Source: Colwellia sp. Arc7-635 (lineage in GTDB: Bacteria > Pseudomonadota > Gammaproteobacteria > Enterobacterales > Alteromonadaceae). Taken from it: DNA of 64,000 nucleotides. The notes beneath the pieces were generated by a model. That model was not told the DNA's origin. It was given only the letters and a program-made list of their open reading frames with translations, and ran no database searches. A program made the position numbers and the translations under genes. Shown here one piece after another: positions 44,895 through 51,415 of this stretch; the stretch's first letter is position 1; the number at the start of each line of letters is the position of its first letter. The DNA lies in the NCBI RefSeq assembly GCF_003971255.1, contig NZ_CP034660.1, positions 3,472,001-3,536,000 on the forward strand. The letters run 5' to 3'.

Positions 44895-46130
44895 ATGTTT
44901 GAACAGTTTGACCTAGATTCCGCGTTATTAGGCGGCGTTGAAAATGCCGGCTTTAAAAAGCCAACGTCTATCCAAGAATTAGTACTTCCTGTGGCTATGA
45001 CAGGCAAAGACGTATTAGCTTCAGCCCCTACAGGAACGGGAAAAACAGCAGCGTTTATTTTACCAGCTGCCCAACACTTACTTGATTACCCTCGCCCCCA
45101 GCAAGGCTTTCCCCGTGTGTTAATTTTGTCGCCAACACGCGAACTTGCCATACAAACTCATGAACAATGTGAGAAGTTAACTGCGCTGACTAATATTAAA
45201 TCAGCGGTTATTACTGGTGGTGTCAATTACGGTAGCCATAAAGAAGTGCTTACAGGTAACACCGATATTTTGGTTGCAACTCCTGGTAGGTTAATGGAGT
45301 ACATTGAAAGTGAACAATTTGATAGTCGCGAAATTGAAATCCTGATTTTAGATGAAGCTGATCGCATGCTTACTATGGGTTTTGCAGAAACGATTAATCG
45401 CATTGTTGCTGAAGCACGCTGGCGTAAACAAACCATGCTGTTTTCCGCAACATTGGAAGGTTCAGCCGTAGTACGTTTCTCACGTGAACTTTTGAACGAG
45501 CCGGTATTCTTAGAAGCTAATCCGTCTCGAAAAGAAAAAGCAAAAATTCATCAATGGATGCACCTGGCAGACGACAAAGATCATAAATACGCTTTATTGC
45601 TAAATTTATTACAACAAGAAGACGTAGAACGTGCGCTGGTTTTTGCCAATAAACGTGAAACAGTGCAATACCTATCAGGTAAGCTTTATGCGGACAATAT
45701 GCCCTGTGTCTGGCTTGAAGGTAAAATGCAACAAGACAAACGCAACACGTCTGTCGAACGTTTACGTAATGGCACGGTTCGTGTTTTAGTCGCGACAGAT
45801 ATCGCTGAACGTGGTTTGGATATTGACGATATAACGCATGTTATTAACTTTGATATGCCGCGCACGGCCGATATTTATTTACATCGTATTGGCCGTACTG
45901 GCCGAGCGGGTAATAAAGGCACCGCCATCTCATTAGTTGAAGCGCATGACATGACGGTTATAGGTAAAATCGAACGCTACATTAAAGAGCGTTTACCTCG
46001 TCGAGTTATTGAAGTACTAAGACCGAAAAACAAAGAAGCTCGTGTTGCTCTGAAAAAAGCTAAAGTAAAAAGAACGGTGGCTCAAAAGAAAGCAAAAGCG
46101 AAAAAACAAGCGAAACGCAACAAAAGCTAA
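44895..46130 (+). CDS. srmB: DEAD-box RNA helicase SrmB
   Basis: 411 residues. All helicase motifs are readable: Q motif KPTSIQELVLPVA, Walker A PTGTGKTAA (about 45-53), PTRELA, GGVNYG, the DEAD box (LDEADRMLTMGFA), SAT, ARGLDI variant ERGLDIDDITHV, and HRIGRTGRAG. The RWRKQTMLFSATLEG and KIHQWMHLADD segments are the SrmB-specific signature. The C-terminal tail is rich in Lys/Arg (about 375-411), as expected for an RNA-binding extension. SrmB helps early assembly of the large ribosomal subunit, especially in the cold. A terminator follows. Confidence 0.95.
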   Translation: MFEQFDLDSALLGGVENAGFKKPTSIQELVLPVAMTGKDVLASAPTGTGKTAAFILPAAQHLLDYPRPQQGFPRVLILSPTRELAIQTHEQCEKLTALTNIKSAVITGGVNYGSHKEVLTGNTDILVATPGRLMEYIESEQFDSREIEILILDEADRMLTMGFAETINRIVAEARWRKQTMLFSATLEGSAVVRFSRELLNEPVFLEANPSRKEKAKIHQWMHLADDKDHKYALLLNLLQQEDVERALVFANKRETVQYLSGKLYADNMPCVWLEGKMQQDKRNTSVERLRNGTVRVLVATDIAERGLDIDDITHVINFDMPRTADIYLHRIGRTGRAGNKGTAISLVEAHDMTVIGKIERYIKERLPRRVIEVLRPKNKEARVALKKAKVKRTVAQKKAKAKKQAKRNKS

Positions 46131-46464
46131 ATGTTTACTTATAATCACTCATGAACATTAAATCATGACCCTGAAATTAGTCGACATAATTGCCAGAGTA
46201 ATATGCGTCACAAAAGCCTAAACCTTAATGAAAATTAAAAGTTTAGGCTTTTTTCTATCTCTCTTCCCTATTTCTACCAATAGTTTACTATCATTAAATT
46301 AAGCAACTACGCTTAAGTTTATCGCTTCTAAGTAAGCTATTACTTCATATAATTACCTAACGTTTTAAATTTACGTAGCGCCAAGATATTATTTCGTTTA
46401 CATTGAGACGCTAATGCAAGTTGTTACAGTATGTAATGTAAAGCAATGATGAGATAACTGGCAG
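46131..46464. other. Region before fecR, no sigma factor gene
   Basis: About 330 bp including the srmB terminator. The place where an ECF sigma gene would normally stand before fecR holds no open frame of suitable length. Confidence 0.5.
46212..46254 (+). terminator. Terminator after srmB
   Basis: Stem aaaagcctaaac/gtttaggctttt (46212-46223 and 46241-46252) with a 17-nt loop and following T's, about 80 bp past the srmB stop. Confidence 0.85.
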
Positions 46465-47574
46465 ATGATAACCGATACATCAAACGATACAGAGTCGATC
46501 CAAGAGCAAGCAAATCTCTGGATAACACGCCTTGATAGCGGCTTATCACGGACTGAAAAACAGCACCTTGTCGCATGGATCAACCAAGACAAAGCTCATT
46601 ACGCTGCCTTAAAAAAATTATCATTTTTGTGGACTGACATATCAACTAAGCACGAATTAAGCGGCTTATTTATTCAAAAAACAGAAAAAAAGCCCCATTT
46701 TGATTACTTAATGAAAACGTTTTTAGCGTTAGGATTAATAACAGTTGCACTGTTAACTGCCAACCTATTTAGTGACGTTAACTTATTGTGGCCGAGCCAA
46801 CAGCGCGATAATACTAAGCATTGGGTCTATCAAAAATATAGCAGCCAATACGGCGAACAAAAACAACTCACTTTAAATGATGGCACTATTGTTGAGCTCA
46901 ACACCAATAGTGTTATAGAGGTTGCCTATACAGCAGAACAACGAAAAATCACCTTAATACGTGGTGAGGCTAGGTTTGATGTTGCTAAGGATAAAAACCG
47001 CCCTTTTACGGTGATTTCTGGTCACAATTCTTTTACCGCACTCGGCACCATTTTTAATGTTCAACGTGAAAATATTAGTTCAGTCGAACTACTCGTAAAA
47101 GAAGGGCGTGTATTGGTCGCTGAAGCTAATGTCCCTGTAGCCAAGTTATTAAACGCGATTAGCGTGTCAGACCAGCAACTGACAGCGCCATTAGGTCTAG
47201 CTACTTCCCAACAAGTGACTGAATTAGCAGTTCAAGATGACAACATACTGACCGCGGGTGAAAAAATTGCCATCGCTAATGATATTTCTTCGGCCAAACA
47301 ATCGTTATCAGCGCAAGAAGTTAAAAAAGAACTCGCATGGCAGCAAGGTATGCTAATTTTTGATGGTGAGCCGTTAACACAAGTATTAAAAGAAGTTCAG
47401 CGTTATAACCAAGTTAAGTTTACCCCGATAAATAATGAGCTGGCCAAACTGCGCGTTTCAGGTTATTTCAAAACCAATGATATTAACGGTTTACTGCAAT
47501 CATTAAGTTACAACTTTAAGATAAACGCACAAGAACTTACAAGTAACACCTATACGCTTTCTCGCACGCTATAA
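46465..47574 (+). CDS. FecR-type anti-sigma regulator
   Basis: 369 residues. The cytoplasmic N-terminal domain (ESIQEQANLWITRLDSGLS and HYAALKKLSFLWTDI) is the FecR N-terminal helical domain that binds an ECF sigma factor. One membrane helix lies near 88-106 (FLALGLITVALLTANLF). The periplasmic FecR domain carries LTLNDGTIVELNTNS and ITLIRGEARFDVAKDKNRPFTV. A C-terminal STN-like segment (FDGEPLTQVLKEVQRYNQVKF) follows. By family precedent it reads the state of the TonB receptor encoded next and controls a sigma factor. No sigma gene is next to it. Confidence 0.92.
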   Translation: MITDTSNDTESIQEQANLWITRLDSGLSRTEKQHLVAWINQDKAHYAALKKLSFLWTDISTKHELSGLFIQKTEKKPHFDYLMKTFLALGLITVALLTANLFSDVNLLWPSQQRDNTKHWVYQKYSSQYGEQKQLTLNDGTIVELNTNSVIEVAYTAEQRKITLIRGEARFDVAKDKNRPFTVISGHNSFTALGTIFNVQRENISSVELLVKEGRVLVAEANVPVAKLLNAISVSDQQLTAPLGLATSQQVTELAVQDDNILTAGEKIAIANDISSAKQSLSAQEVKKELAWQQGMLIFDGEPLTQVLKEVQRYNQVKFTPINNELAKLRVSGYFKTNDINGLLQSLSYNFKINAQELTSNTYTLSRTL

Positions 47575-47699
47575 AACTAACAATAAAACTTGTACGCAAA
47601 TAAAATAAAAACAAAATTACAGCTTACGGCATACATCAGTAAAAGATCCAGTAACAAGCCAGTTAAGTAAGGTAAAGCTTCAACGGAATTCGGTTATTC

Positions 47700-50603
47700 A
47701 TGAATAGTACCTTTTACCTTTTAGAGGTAAATAAAATAACGCTAGTTTTACTATTATTAAAAAAGCAATTAACACGCTTTTTGTCTGTACTCATGCTGAT
47801 ATTCATTTCTCTTTCTGCTCACGCCGATAAGCTGCTCTATTTTGATATTCCACAAAACAATGCTAACCAAGCACTGATCACCTTTGGTCAACAGAGTGAA
47901 AAAACACTCCTTTTTTCATTTGAATTGACAAAAACAGCACAAAGTAATCCCATTAAAGGTTATTACACTATAGATTTTGCTTTAAAAAAGCTATTACGGG
48001 GCTCAAGGCTTAATTTCAATAGAAATAGTGCCGGTGCTATCGCTATTTTCGCTCGCCAATCACCTGTAAAGCGATTATCAAAAAACACCATCGACAACGC
48101 CTTAGATAGCACAAATGGTCTCTCAACGGGTATCAATAAACATGCCCCCCTGAGCATCGAAAAAATAGCTATTGTTGGTAGTAGAACAGCAAGACGCTCT
48201 ATTACTGACTTACCGGTACCTGTAGATATTCTCTCTTTTGAACAATTAAGACAGTCGGGAAAAACGTCAGTTGGCAATATGTTACAAGCAATCGCGCCGT
48301 CTTTTAATTTTTCAAAGTCAGCCATCAGTGATGGCAGTGATGTTTTACAACCGGCAACGCTTAGAGGTTTAGGCCCCGATCAAACCTTAGTGTTAGTTAA
48401 TGGCAAGCGACGCCATCAAGCTAGTTTAATACATATCAATAACTCGGTTGGACGCGGCACTGCAGGCACTGACTTAAATGCTATCCCATTAGCTGCGATT
48501 AAACGTATTGAAATATTACGTGACGGCGCAGCGGCACAATATGGCTCAGACGCTATTGCGGGCGTTATCAATTTAGTATTAAAAGACGACACCTCACCTG
48601 ACTACGCTGAAGTTTCCTACGGACAATATAGCCAAGGTGATGGCGCTAGCCAGCAGTTCGATTTTAATAAAACTTTTAACTTATTTGAGCAAGGCTTTAT
48701 TAATGCGTCACTCAGTATTAGCGATCATCAAGCAACCAACCGCGCAGGCCAAGACGGGGCTTGCATTTACCAGAATTGTATTAGCTTAGCGCCTAATAAA
48801 TATAAAACCTCGAACATAAATGAAATAACAGCCGATAGGAATACATTCTCAGTAGGTAACCCAAAATACCAGCAGCAATCGGGGGTAATAAACGCAGGCT
48901 ACTCACTTAACTCTGGCGAGCTTTATGGCTTTGCTAGCTACTCTAAAAGAGATAACACTTCTGCCGCTTTTTTTCGCTCAGCACGTAACAGTAGTACCAA
49001 CCCTCCATTACAAGATCAACATGCTACGCTGCGTCATGGTTATTTACCTGAGATAGCCACAAGTATCAAAGACGCATCAATAAATATTGGTTACGTTTTT
49101 GAACTGGACGACGATACCTCCTTTGATGCTTCATATACGCACGGTAAGAATTCAATTAATTATCAAATAAAAAACTCTCTTAATGCCTCATACGCCAATC
49201 TTTTACATTTTCAAGGTGCGTTGTCTGATAAGGATATTCGCGCGACTATTCCAAGATCGGCTCACGCCTATGATCTATCATTGTCATTACAAACTTTAAA
49301 TATTGATATTATAAAAGATCTTAACTGGGCAACACTCGCATTAGGTCTTGAGTTTAGACGTGATAATTACCAAATTAAATCAGGCGAAAAATACAGTTAC
49401 TTCGATTATGACACTATCGAAAATCAATCATTATTTTCGATTGATTCCGTTGCTGGCACGCAAGGTTTTCCAGGGGTAGCACCGGATTCAACCGTTGACG
49501 AACAACGTAATGTGCGCTCAATTTATTTAGAAATTACACAACAGCTCAGTACCAATATAACATTGGACAGCGCCATAAGGTTTGATGACTATGATGGTTT
49601 TGGCTCTTCAAGCAACTTTAAAATTGCGGCCCATTGGCAAAGTGATCATTGGCTAACTTATCGAGCAGCTTTTAATACTGGCTTCCGAGCGCCTTCAATG
49701 CAACAACTCTATTTTAATAACATGAGTACGCAGTATTTAGTTGCTGACGATGGCGCTCTAACAAGCCAAAAAATAGCAACCTTTAGAAACGACAGTAGCT
49801 TAGCCAGTAACATAGGCATTGCCGAATTAAAGCAAGAAACCTCAGTAAATATCAGTTTAGGTGCGGTTGCTAATCTCAGTAATAACGTCACCGTAACGCT
49901 TGATTACTACCGTATAGATATTGACGATAGAATCGTGTTAAGTAGTAGTTTATATTCAGGTAAGAGTCCGATATTAGACCAAGTATTAACAGCCGAAAAT
50001 GTTGATAAAGCACAGCTGTTTTTAAATGGTGCTGATACTAGAACGCAAGGCATAGACTTGATCGCAACATGGCGATATCCAATAGAAAGTGGCACATTGG
50101 ATTTAACTTTAGCGGCTAATTTTACTGACACAGAGGTCACTCGCTTATTTTCACCCGAAGCAAGCGCTTTAAATAGCTTACCCGTAGAGCAAGTTTTTTC
50201 TGAACACGACATCGCGATTATTGAAAGTTGGCAACCCCAAAATAGAATCAACTTTAACGTTAGCTACCAACAAGAAAATTGGCTTTTTCAGTTAACACTT
50301 AATCGCTTTGGCCAATACAGTGTTATTGATGGTGAGAAACAAACCTATGGCGCAGAACTACTGACTGATATTCGCGTTGAATATCAATTAACCGATAGTA
50401 CTAAGTTCTATTTTGGTAGTAATAACTTGTTTGATGTTTATCCCGATAAAAACACCATCGGTAACTCAAGACAGGGTCATATCATCGATGAAGCAGGCAA
50501 CAGCATTGTTGATAGTGATGGGGTTTTCCAGTATTCACGTCGTTCGGCACCATTTGGTTACAATGGTGCCTACTTCTATGCTGGCCTTAACATCAACTTC
50601 TAA
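47700..50603 (+). CDS. TonB-dependent outer-membrane receptor with STN signalling domain
   Basis: 967 residues. An N-terminal signal segment (about 25-42, ending AHA) is followed by an STN domain (YFDIPQNNANQALITFGQQS to about 118). The plug domain (about 165-300) shows TDLPVPVDILSFEQLRQSG, ATLRGLGPDQTLVLVNGKRR and the IKRIEILRDGAAAQYGSDAIAGVIN block. The beta-barrel ends with the terminal aromatic strand AYFYAGLNINF, so it is complete. The receptor takes up an unidentified ligand and, through the STN domain, should signal to the FecR encoded 125 bp upstream. The motif spectrum does not point to a particular siderophore. Confidence 0.93.
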   Translation: MNSTFYLLEVNKITLVLLLLKKQLTRFLSVLMLIFISLSAHADKLLYFDIPQNNANQALITFGQQSEKTLLFSFELTKTAQSNPIKGYYTIDFALKKLLRGSRLNFNRNSAGAIAIFARQSPVKRLSKNTIDNALDSTNGLSTGINKHAPLSIEKIAIVGSRTARRSITDLPVPVDILSFEQLRQSGKTSVGNMLQAIAPSFNFSKSAISDGSDVLQPATLRGLGPDQTLVLVNGKRRHQASLIHINNSVGRGTAGTDLNAIPLAAIKRIEILRDGAAAQYGSDAIAGVINLVLKDDTSPDYAEVSYGQYSQGDGASQQFDFNKTFNLFEQGFINASLSISDHQATNRAGQDGACIYQNCISLAPNKYKTSNINEITADRNTFSVGNPKYQQQSGVINAGYSLNSGELYGFASYSKRDNTSAAFFRSARNSSTNPPLQDQHATLRHGYLPEIATSIKDASINIGYVFELDDDTSFDASYTHGKNSINYQIKNSLNASYANLLHFQGALSDKDIRATIPRSAHAYDLSLSLQTLNIDIIKDLNWATLALGLEFRRDNYQIKSGEKYSYFDYDTIENQSLFSIDSVAGTQGFPGVAPDSTVDEQRNVRSIYLEITQQLSTNITLDSAIRFDDYDGFGSSSNFKIAAHWQSDHWLTYRAAFNTGFRAPSMQQLYFNNMSTQYLVADDGALTSQKIATFRNDSSLASNIGIAELKQETSVNISLGAVANLSNNVTVTLDYYRIDIDDRIVLSSSLYSGKSPILDQVLTAENVDKAQLFLNGADTRTQGIDLIATWRYPIESGTLDLTLAANFTDTEVTRLFSPEASALNSLPVEQVFSEHDIAIIESWQPQNRINFNVSYQQENWLFQLTLNRFGQYSVIDGEKQTYGAELLTDIRVEYQLTDSTKFYFGSNNLFDVYPDKNTIGNSRQGHIIDEAGNSIVDSDGVFQYSRRSAPFGYNGAYFYAGLNINF

Positions 50604-50641: not shown

Positions 50642-51415
50642 TTAAGCTTCTTTGCGGGTGAATACCCAATCATTGCCTTTACTAAACTCTGCTGAGTATT
50701 GATAACCTGCAACATCAAAGGCTTTTAATTTTTCAACATCACTGATTTGATGCTCAATAATGTAACGTGCCATTAAACCGCGTGCTTTTTTAGCATAAAA
50801 ACTGATCATTTTAAATTGACCGTTTTTCCAGTCTTTAAACGCTGGGGTGATAACTTCAGCCTTAAGTGCTTTTTTATTGACCGCTTTAAAATATTCATTT
50901 GATGCTAAGTTAATTAAAACATTATCACCTTGAGCGGCAATAGCGCTGTTTAAATGCTCGGTGATAATATCGCCCCAAAATTGGTATAAATTACTACCAC
51001 GATCATTATCTAATTTTTTCCCCATCTCTAAGCGATATGCTTGCATTAAATCAAGTGGCTTTAATAAACCATATAATCCAGATAATATCCGCATATGTTG
51101 CTGAGCAAAGGCAAAATCGTTTTCAGTAAATGATTTCGCATCTAAGCCTGAATATACATCGCCATTAAAAGCTAATATCGCTTGTCGGGCATTTTCTGGT
51201 GTAAAAGGTGTAGTCCATTCACCAAAACGAGCAGCATTTAAGCCGGCTAACTTATCACTTATGCCCATTAATGAACTGATGTCTGCTGGTGTCAGCGTTT
51301 TACATTTCTTCATCAACACCTGACTGTGCTCTAACAGCTCAGGTTGAGAAAATCGCTCAGTAGCAACGGGAGATTCGTAATCTAGATTTTTAGCGGGAGA
51401 AACAACAAGCAACAT
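50642..51415 (-). CDS. yaaA: Peroxide stress protein YaaA
   Basis: 257 residues, the usual length. The family start [16 protein letters not shown] and the [21 protein letters not shown] block are unmistakable, as is [14 protein letters not shown]. coli YaaA lowers intracellular iron damage and binds DNA under peroxide stress. Here it is convergent with the TonB receptor gene, 38 bp away. In E. coli it also neighbours talB, which lies on the other side here. Confidence 0.95.

Follow-up and report, generated by a model that had tools for sequence, protein, structure and literature searches.

FecR proteins are regulators of FecI sigma factors encoded next door. In the genome of Colwellia sp. Arc7-635, a fecR gene is followed by a gene for a TonB-dependent receptor with an STN signalling domain, and no gene for an extracytoplasmic function (ECF) sigma factor stands beside them. 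This locus raises the question of what became of the sigma factor, and of what the FecR protein now acts on. The stretch analysed, hereafter the window, comprises 64,000 nucleotides (positions 3,472,001-3,536,000 of the single-contig genome G000, 4.74 Mb, 100% complete), and the coordinates below are those of the window. In our reading, the FecI-type sigma gene was lost long ago, the FecR-receptor pair was retained, and the output of FecR would now be redirected to another, putative cytoplasmic partner; we hold this reading tentatively, and put its chances just short of even. The case is good for the old loss of the sigma factor and fair for a changed cytoplasmic surface of FecR, and the new partner is unproven.

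The locus and its two proteins

The fecR gene (46465..47574, plus strand) is an open frame of 369 aa, identified as a membrane anti-sigma-type regulator by Pfam, a structural model and Foldseek, and the receptor gene (47700..50603, plus strand) is an open frame of 967 aa with STN, plug and barrel domains in Pfam. Upstream lies the open frame of a DEAD-box helicase (44895..46130, plus strand), which we take to be srmB-like by recognition and from the name used in the original prediction, with no family search behind the name, and which has the same direction as fecR and the receptor gene. The downstream landmark is an open frame on the minus strand (50642..51415), presumably yaaA-like, a label also given by recognition.

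The gap between srmB and fecR (46131..46464, 334 bp) is the place where a FecI-type sigma gene stands in ten relatives, and it holds neither such a gene nor a remnant of one. The sole frame of at least 60 aa touching it is a 64 aa minus-strand frame with a TTG start that overlaps the start of fecR. A FecI profile built from 64 sequences and run over the 350 bp 5' of fecR plus 60 bp into the gene gave only -1.1 bits, whereas the maximum among 520 mononucleotide shuffles over all targets was 4.6 bits, and a real eroded sigma gene, L222, used as positive control, gave 46.9 bits. The profile scan, with its shuffles and control, rules out an overlooked sigma frame in this gap, which the original prediction had named as a way in which it could be wrong. 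A hairpin with a T run, terminator-like, is present 3' of srmB (46212..46252, plus strand; -16.1 kcal/mol, z -5.48); none of 200 shuffles was equally good, and a consensus terminator scan, whose rule permits loops of 3-8 only, missed it. The frames, the hairpin and the profile scan thus bear out the initial description of a fecR and an STN-TonB receptor gene without a neighbouring sigma gene, with only the srmB terminator in the gap.

In the FecR protein, Pfam hmmscan placed the FecR (residues 124-216) and FecR_C (297-361) families above the cut-off, and DUF4880 (14-49) below it, at 21.4 of 25 bits. The AlphaFold model (mean predicted local distance difference test score, pLDDT, 85; predicted template modelling score, pTM, 0.65) has anti-sigma helices at residues 9-25, 29-41, 43-51 and 59-68 and a long helix at 80-108, and so predicts that a helical anti-sigma domain in the cytoplasm leads into a single membrane helix. 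Foldseek and structure searches with FecR returned no solved anti-sigma domain; the periplasmic part matched PupR (6ovk, E 1.3e-19) and also a Parabacteroides anti-sigma factor (4m0h, 4m0n). The protein can be divided into a cytoplasmic anti-sigma domain (residues 8-72; 46486..46680), marked by altered family-invariant positions and purifying selection, a periplasmic juxta-membrane beta subdomain (residues 121-220; 46825..47124) and a C-terminal STN-like subdomain (residues 293-367; 47341..47565), all on the plus strand. The latter two are delimited by Pfam, the model and Foldseek, the last also in line with PMC7186176, and together the periplasmic FecR domain and the STN subdomain identify the protein as a FecR-type regulator. 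The C-terminal STN-like segment, to which relevance for the signal path had been attached, is real (FecR_C, PupR 6ovk), but it is ordinary FecR architecture and nothing special to this pair, because FecR proteins normally carry an STN subdomain, which belongs to the conserved regulator fold according to PMC7186176.

In the receptor, plug and barrel lie above the Pfam cut-off. The STN signalling domain (residues 69-118; 47904..48053, plus strand) scored 25.2 bits in hmmscan, just below the cut-off of 28.4, and 29.3 bits, above it, in the genome search, and it is also supported by the aligned N-termini. The protein is, then, a TonB-dependent receptor with an N-terminal STN domain, as is characteristic of cell-surface signalling.

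The srmB locus in related genomes

In order to follow the locus in relatives, we retrieved loci from a first set of 98 related genomes (39 with a FecR match at E <= 1e-5; 56 loci fetched), and added 40 loci from a survey of 395 genomes of the family and 66 from named contigs. In the family survey, 108 genomes had a FecR match at E <= 1e-50, and loci were read in 54 of them, picked to cover genera and not as a census. An ECF sigma gene lies at most two genes upstream of fecR in 44 of the 56 loci of the first set, and the 12 without one consist of 11 members of the srmB locus and L138. Altogether the srmB locus without sigma was found in 23 genomes, whereas ten distinct rows carry a sigma gene between srmB and fecR (L096, L100, L152, L157, L159, L161, L162, L229, L234 and L239). 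A relative of srmB is among the three genes preceding fecR in all 23 sigma-less rows as well as in 10 sigma-bearing ones. At the other end, yaaA is found within four genes downstream in 17 of the 23 sigma-less loci (in five, all of genus g25, this stretch is occupied by different genes, and one is cut off by a contig edge) and also downstream in four of the ten sigma-bearing rows.

These four, L096, L162, L229 and L234, share with the window the order srmB-fecR-receptor-yaaA. Their FecR proteins (genomes G055, G133, G153 and G433) are 44-49% identical to that of the window. What sets the sigma-bearing kin apart from the window is a FecI-type sigma gene of 189-194 aa directly 5' of fecR; in L234, and likewise in L152, an extra frame stands between srmB and the sigma gene.

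The 23 sigma-less FecR proteins form one clade, with support in the Shimodaira-Hasegawa-like approximate likelihood ratio test (SH-aLRT) of 97 for the whole protein and 94 for the periplasmic part alone. This main tree has 90 rows, FecRs below 195 bits and 18 duplicate rows being excluded. With 14 more distant FecRs, FastTree gave the sigma-less clade a support of 98; the outgroup formed no single side of any branch, one row falling on the wrong side, and the trees came with long-branch warnings. The receptors of 22 sigma-less loci also form one clade, with support 100. The sigma-less clade spans the genus of the window (8 genomes), g76, g25 and the Thalassotalea-type genera g21, g34 and g39. 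Since the rows surrounding it carry a sigma gene, loss is the simpler reading, and from these trees the FecI-type sigma looks to have been lost once, long ago, in this gene clade. The loss is not recent, because it is common to 23 genomes of several genera in one clade.

A recent deletion of the sigma gene, with the locus now decaying, would agree with the presence of sigma-bearing kin at the same spot and with the true decay seen in genus g25 (L213, L217 and L222). Relatives with a sigma gene here, together with signs of a recent deletion, had been named at the outset as evidence that would speak against the original prediction; such relatives do exist, but the loss itself is shared by all 23 genomes. 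Within this clade, identity to the window's FecR goes down to about 40%, and both genes are open over their full length in 22 of the 23 loci (L185/L228 stop at a contig end). The FecI profile found no sigma remnant in the 350 bp 5' of fecR in any of the 23 loci, a scan that stops short of srmB in L092, L093 and L095, where a gene is inserted. The single-clade tree and the strong purifying selection described below, taken together, refute a recent deletion, to which we give practically no credence.

Other loci of the family show different histories. In L092, L093 and L095, which belong to the same genus, the gene inserted between srmB and fecR is on the opposite strand, and it is of the MipA family in the two that were tested, L092 and L095. 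In genus g25, the paralogues L213, L217 and L222 (genomes G122, G181 and G218) are decaying FecI-FecR loci. Like the window, they have a fecR without a working sigma gene, but unlike its well-kept pair, about the first 43 sigma residues are fused in frame to FecR in L222, giving a protein of 386 aa, sigma and anti-sigma domain are largely lost in L213 and L217, and the receptor is split in L213. These three loci were counted as sigma-less in the whole-protein tree, labelled apart in the periplasmic tree and dropped from the FastTree analysis with the outgroup.

Among the distant matches L190-L210, four (L191, L193, L198 and L208) have fecR and no ECF sigma gene in the fetched stretch, and the same is true of L138 (G040:C8). 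All five are pairs of a FecR and a large outer-membrane protein with no sigma gene within about 5 kb, as in the window, but their FecRs score below 80 bits against that of the window and they are mostly on Bacteroidota contigs. Because L191, L193, L198 and L208 show no sigma gene in the stretch fetched, a missing neighbour sigma is not unique to the srmB-locus clade.

The anti-sigma domain of FecR

With 64 sigma-bearing FecRs as reference, residues 8-72 include 19 positions whose invariance is 95% or higher. Six of these 19 (S21, D24, R25, A53, W56 and D57) are altered in half or more of the 23 sigma-less rows, compared with 1 of 30 and 1 of 18 invariant columns in the periplasmic subdomains (Fisher test over columns, p 0.005, ignoring ancestry). 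In sigma-bearing control clades, 1 of 18, 0 of 19 and 0 of 17 anti-sigma columns are altered, and in single-row controls 1 of 19 and 0 of 19. By the standard of the relatives, which is not a published criterion, the FecR clade of the window therefore departs from the invariant anti-sigma residues. The contrast between the anti-sigma and periplasmic parts is also seen within the genus of the window (6/19 against 2/48), in g25 (7/19 against 4/48) and in G164 (4/19 against 1/48). The core of the domain (A16, W19, G26, L27, E31, W38, H45, L65 and F69) is kept in most sigma-less rows. According to PMC9249621, W19R and W39R abolish induction by Escherichia coli FecR; by our judgement, these tryptophans would correspond to W19 and W38 of the window's FecR.

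The altered domain is still constrained. The pooled ratio of nonsynonymous to synonymous differences (pN/pS) in the anti-sigma domain is 0.138 for 8 sigma-less pairs and 0.130 for 13 sigma-bearing pairs, values that serve as a comparison and not as a rate, dS (synonymous divergence) being saturated in several pairs. Among the sigma-less pairs, saturation is lower in L089-L090, L092-L093, L184-L223 and L212-L215, and the least saturated pairs show little amino-acid change, with a nonsynonymous divergence (dN) of 0 at dS 0.20 in L184-L223. Judged from these codon comparisons, the sigma-less anti-sigma domain is under strong purifying selection and does not drift freely. In the receptors, compared over the 84 of 90 loci whose receptor exceeds 780 aa, 1 of 16 invariant STN positions is altered in half or more of the sigma-less rows, and the mean fraction altered, 0.20, lies within the range of the sigma-bearing controls (0.19 and 0.33). 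The STN is the fastest-changing main domain of the receptor (mean 20% of invariants, against 10% in plug and barrel), as it also is in the control clades. Since the STN changes stay within the control range, while anti-sigma invariants are altered at a low pN/pS, the pathway looks intact from the outside as far as the periplasm, and its inner half looks rewritten but still constrained.

A different explanation of these patterns is that FecR talks to no sigma factor at all, and serves in the periplasm as a partner or docking site for the receptor STN, its anti-sigma domain being kept for folding, dimerisation or membrane insertion. This would account for invariant anti-sigma positions that are altered differently in each sub-clade, for periplasmic invariants that are mostly kept (1/30 and 1/18 altered), and for the absence of FecI-type sigmas from the pair-bearing genomes of the genus. 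A domain that had lost its partner would, however, be expected to erode or vanish, as in L213 and L217, and the constraint on this one is about equal to that in the sigma-bearing kin (0.138 against 0.130).

Several observations weigh against a redirected output. In one sigma-bearing control clade, the periplasmic invariants are the altered ones (4/35 and 4/22, against 0/19 in the anti-sigma domain), and in the Thalassotalea-type clade the contrast is weak (3/19 anti-sigma against 5/48 periplasmic). The altered positions differ by sub-clade, being S21, R25, A53, D57, L62 and P70 in the genus of the window and D24, W56 and L68 in the Thalassotalea-type clade, and changes of this kind would be expected about equally from drift after the interface was lost and from a single new partner shared by all. 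Besides, the kept core shows only that the domain still folds, and the purifying selection could stem from folding, dimerisation or membrane insertion and not from partner binding. Given changes that differ by sub-clade, a contrast that is weak in one sub-clade and a constraint that may stem from folding or dimerisation, a FecR that acts solely as a dock is a serious rival, although we think it less likely than not.

Sigma factors, promoter region and known systems

The original prediction had suggested that the pair may use a distant sigma factor, to be sought as an unpaired FecI-type gene. We searched the genomes with a profile of nine FecI-type sigmas, whose members score about 90-327 bits in other genomes. 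Among the same-genus genomes that have the pair, eight counting that of the window (seven of them 99% complete or better, G006 66%), none yielded such a sigma, and the best matches reached 38-42 bits; in the window's genome the best match is RpoE (42 bits), and in the other same-genus genomes it is RpoE-like. G198 likewise has no intact FecI-type sigma. Within the genus, a FecI-type gene is present in 8 of the 9 genomes that lack the pair and in 0 of the 8 that have it (Fisher p 0.0004, ignoring ancestry).

The window's genome has nine ECF genes, and none is FecI-type. By NCBIfam, one is RpoE (TIGR02939, 334 bits) and another SigX (L050; NF007222, 212 bits over a cut-off of 194); of the remaining seven, there are members of NF009170 and NF009178, and five others are under all the specific cut-offs shown. 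One-by-one inspection of the PF08281 matches covered the ECF genes, and RpoD, RpoS, RpoH and FliA are presumed identities among the sigma matches, named from frame length alone. The FecI-type ECF sigma of a FecI-FecR-FecA system is thus found neither beside fecR nor elsewhere in this genome. A FecI-type sigma acting from a distance is conceivable in the 14 other sigma-less genomes, of 23, that have such a gene elsewhere, a point that also tells against a new partner in those genomes; in G040, G036, G054 and G049, that other gene sits with its own fecR. For the window's assembly the nine ECFs, together with the low profile matches here and in its seven same-genus fellows, refute it, and overall we find it very unlikely.

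Most ECF genes of the window's genome adjoin a candidate anti-sigma gene, the frames being read by eye, and SigX is the only one beside which none was seen (the gene before it we take to be MscS-like, by recognition). This could make SigX a free, adopted partner of FecR. SigX, however, is present in just 9 of the 23 sigma-less genomes, which refutes it as a general partner, and was not found in pair-bearing G003 (one contig, 100% complete) or G016 (100%); its adoption, too, seems to us very unlikely.

An L048-type ECF sigma is found in all 23 sigma-less genomes, in 4 of the 9 genomes of the genus that lack the pair and in 5 of 8 with a sigma-bearing locus (23/23 against 9/17, Fisher p 0.0003, ignoring ancestry). 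A RpoE-type match is found in 37 of 40 genomes, including all 23 sigma-less ones. By co-occurrence, RpoE and the L048-type ECF are candidates for the partner, a lead and not a result. Two further points count against them: L048 and RpoE each adjoin their own putative anti-sigma gene, and the co-occurrence of the pair with candidate ECFs is confounded by ancestry. The earlier idea of a changed output gains support from the altered yet constrained anti-sigma residues, and the partner stands at the level of candidates.

Some further genes came up in this search. L055 was considered as a common partner and rejected: it is present over the greater part of its length in 14 of the 23 sigma-less genomes, reduced to fragments in G003 and G013, and without a match in 7. 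Its ECF gene stands between two TonB_C-domain genes (L055 5550-7456), and in the second of the TonB-like proteins the membrane helix is preceded by an N-terminal stretch that might, as a guess, be an anti-sigma domain joined to TonB. L054 (5256-6443) encodes an ECF sigma and a C-terminal membrane-looking region in one frame of 395 aa. The sole other FecR-domain gene above the cut-off, L016 (799-2019), adjoins an outer-membrane-like gene and encodes an exported-looking protein of 406 aa with no anti-sigma domain (by eye), and was rejected as a second anti-sigma-type FecR helper.

The 5' region of fecR was also inspected. A candidate housekeeping-type promoter, TTTAAA-17 nt-TATTAT (46364..46392, plus strand), came from a promoter scan over 401 bp that gave 2 matches against 1.6 expected in shuffles, and it lies in a block conserved among same-genus orthologues. 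In the 90 bp 5' of fecR these orthologues share a partly conserved, TATAAT-like block, which reads TATAAT in L089, L090 and L091. We infer from this that fecR probably has its own housekeeping-type promoter. Between the candidate promoter and fecR, a putative operator-like inverted repeat, TTACA-GTA-TGTAA (46424..46436), was noticed by eye. The pattern TTACA-N3-TGTAA is complete in 4 of 7 aligned rows (the window, L089, L090 and L091), has TTTCA as its left arm in L092 and L095, and is lost in L094. A comparison by eye of the conserved block with the Fur boxes in PMC1790865 gave no convincing match, and Fur control was set aside. In sigma-bearing loci, the region ahead of the sigma gene often shows, by eye, TTG, about 17 nt and then TACACT or TAGACT, a pattern not seen before the sigma-less fecR genes.

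Taken as a mechanism, the redirected output would run as follows. After a single, ancient loss of the FecI-type sigma gene, a FecI-FecR-receptor cassette would have been kept as a two-gene unit. Ligand binding would be relayed by the receptor STN to the periplasmic domain of FecR, FecR would be cleaved in the membrane, and its N-terminal domain, freed or held at the membrane, would act on a different cytoplasmic partner. This would most likely be a sigma of another type than FecI with its gene elsewhere in the genome; the candidates present in all 23 pair-bearing genomes examined are RpoE and the L048-type ECF. That the anti-sigma domain has been re-aimed at another regulator, whether the L048-type ECF, RpoE or a non-sigma protein, would amount to natural anti-sigma partner switching, which we consider possible, if appreciably below an even chance. 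If the redirected output is true, a cell-surface nutrient signal now feeds another gene network. A FecR clade that has outlived its sigma factor is also a ready means of studying partner changes in anti-sigma domains, and any functions that FecR may have without FecI. Searches of open-licence PMC texts brought up no description of a conserved FecR-receptor pair that lacks FecI.

In comparison with the E. coli FecI-FecR-FecA and the PupI-PupR-PupB systems, the pair has kept the common plan. The FecR domain order is that of PupR, as given in PMC7186176, with cytoplasmic helices, a membrane helix, a beta subdomain and a C-terminal STN; the receptor has an N-terminal STN, plug and barrel, and the gene order fecR-receptor is the same. 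Unlike these systems, the pair has no FecI-type sigma adjoining it or found in its genome, and its anti-sigma domain is altered at positions that are invariant in 64 sigma-bearing relatives.

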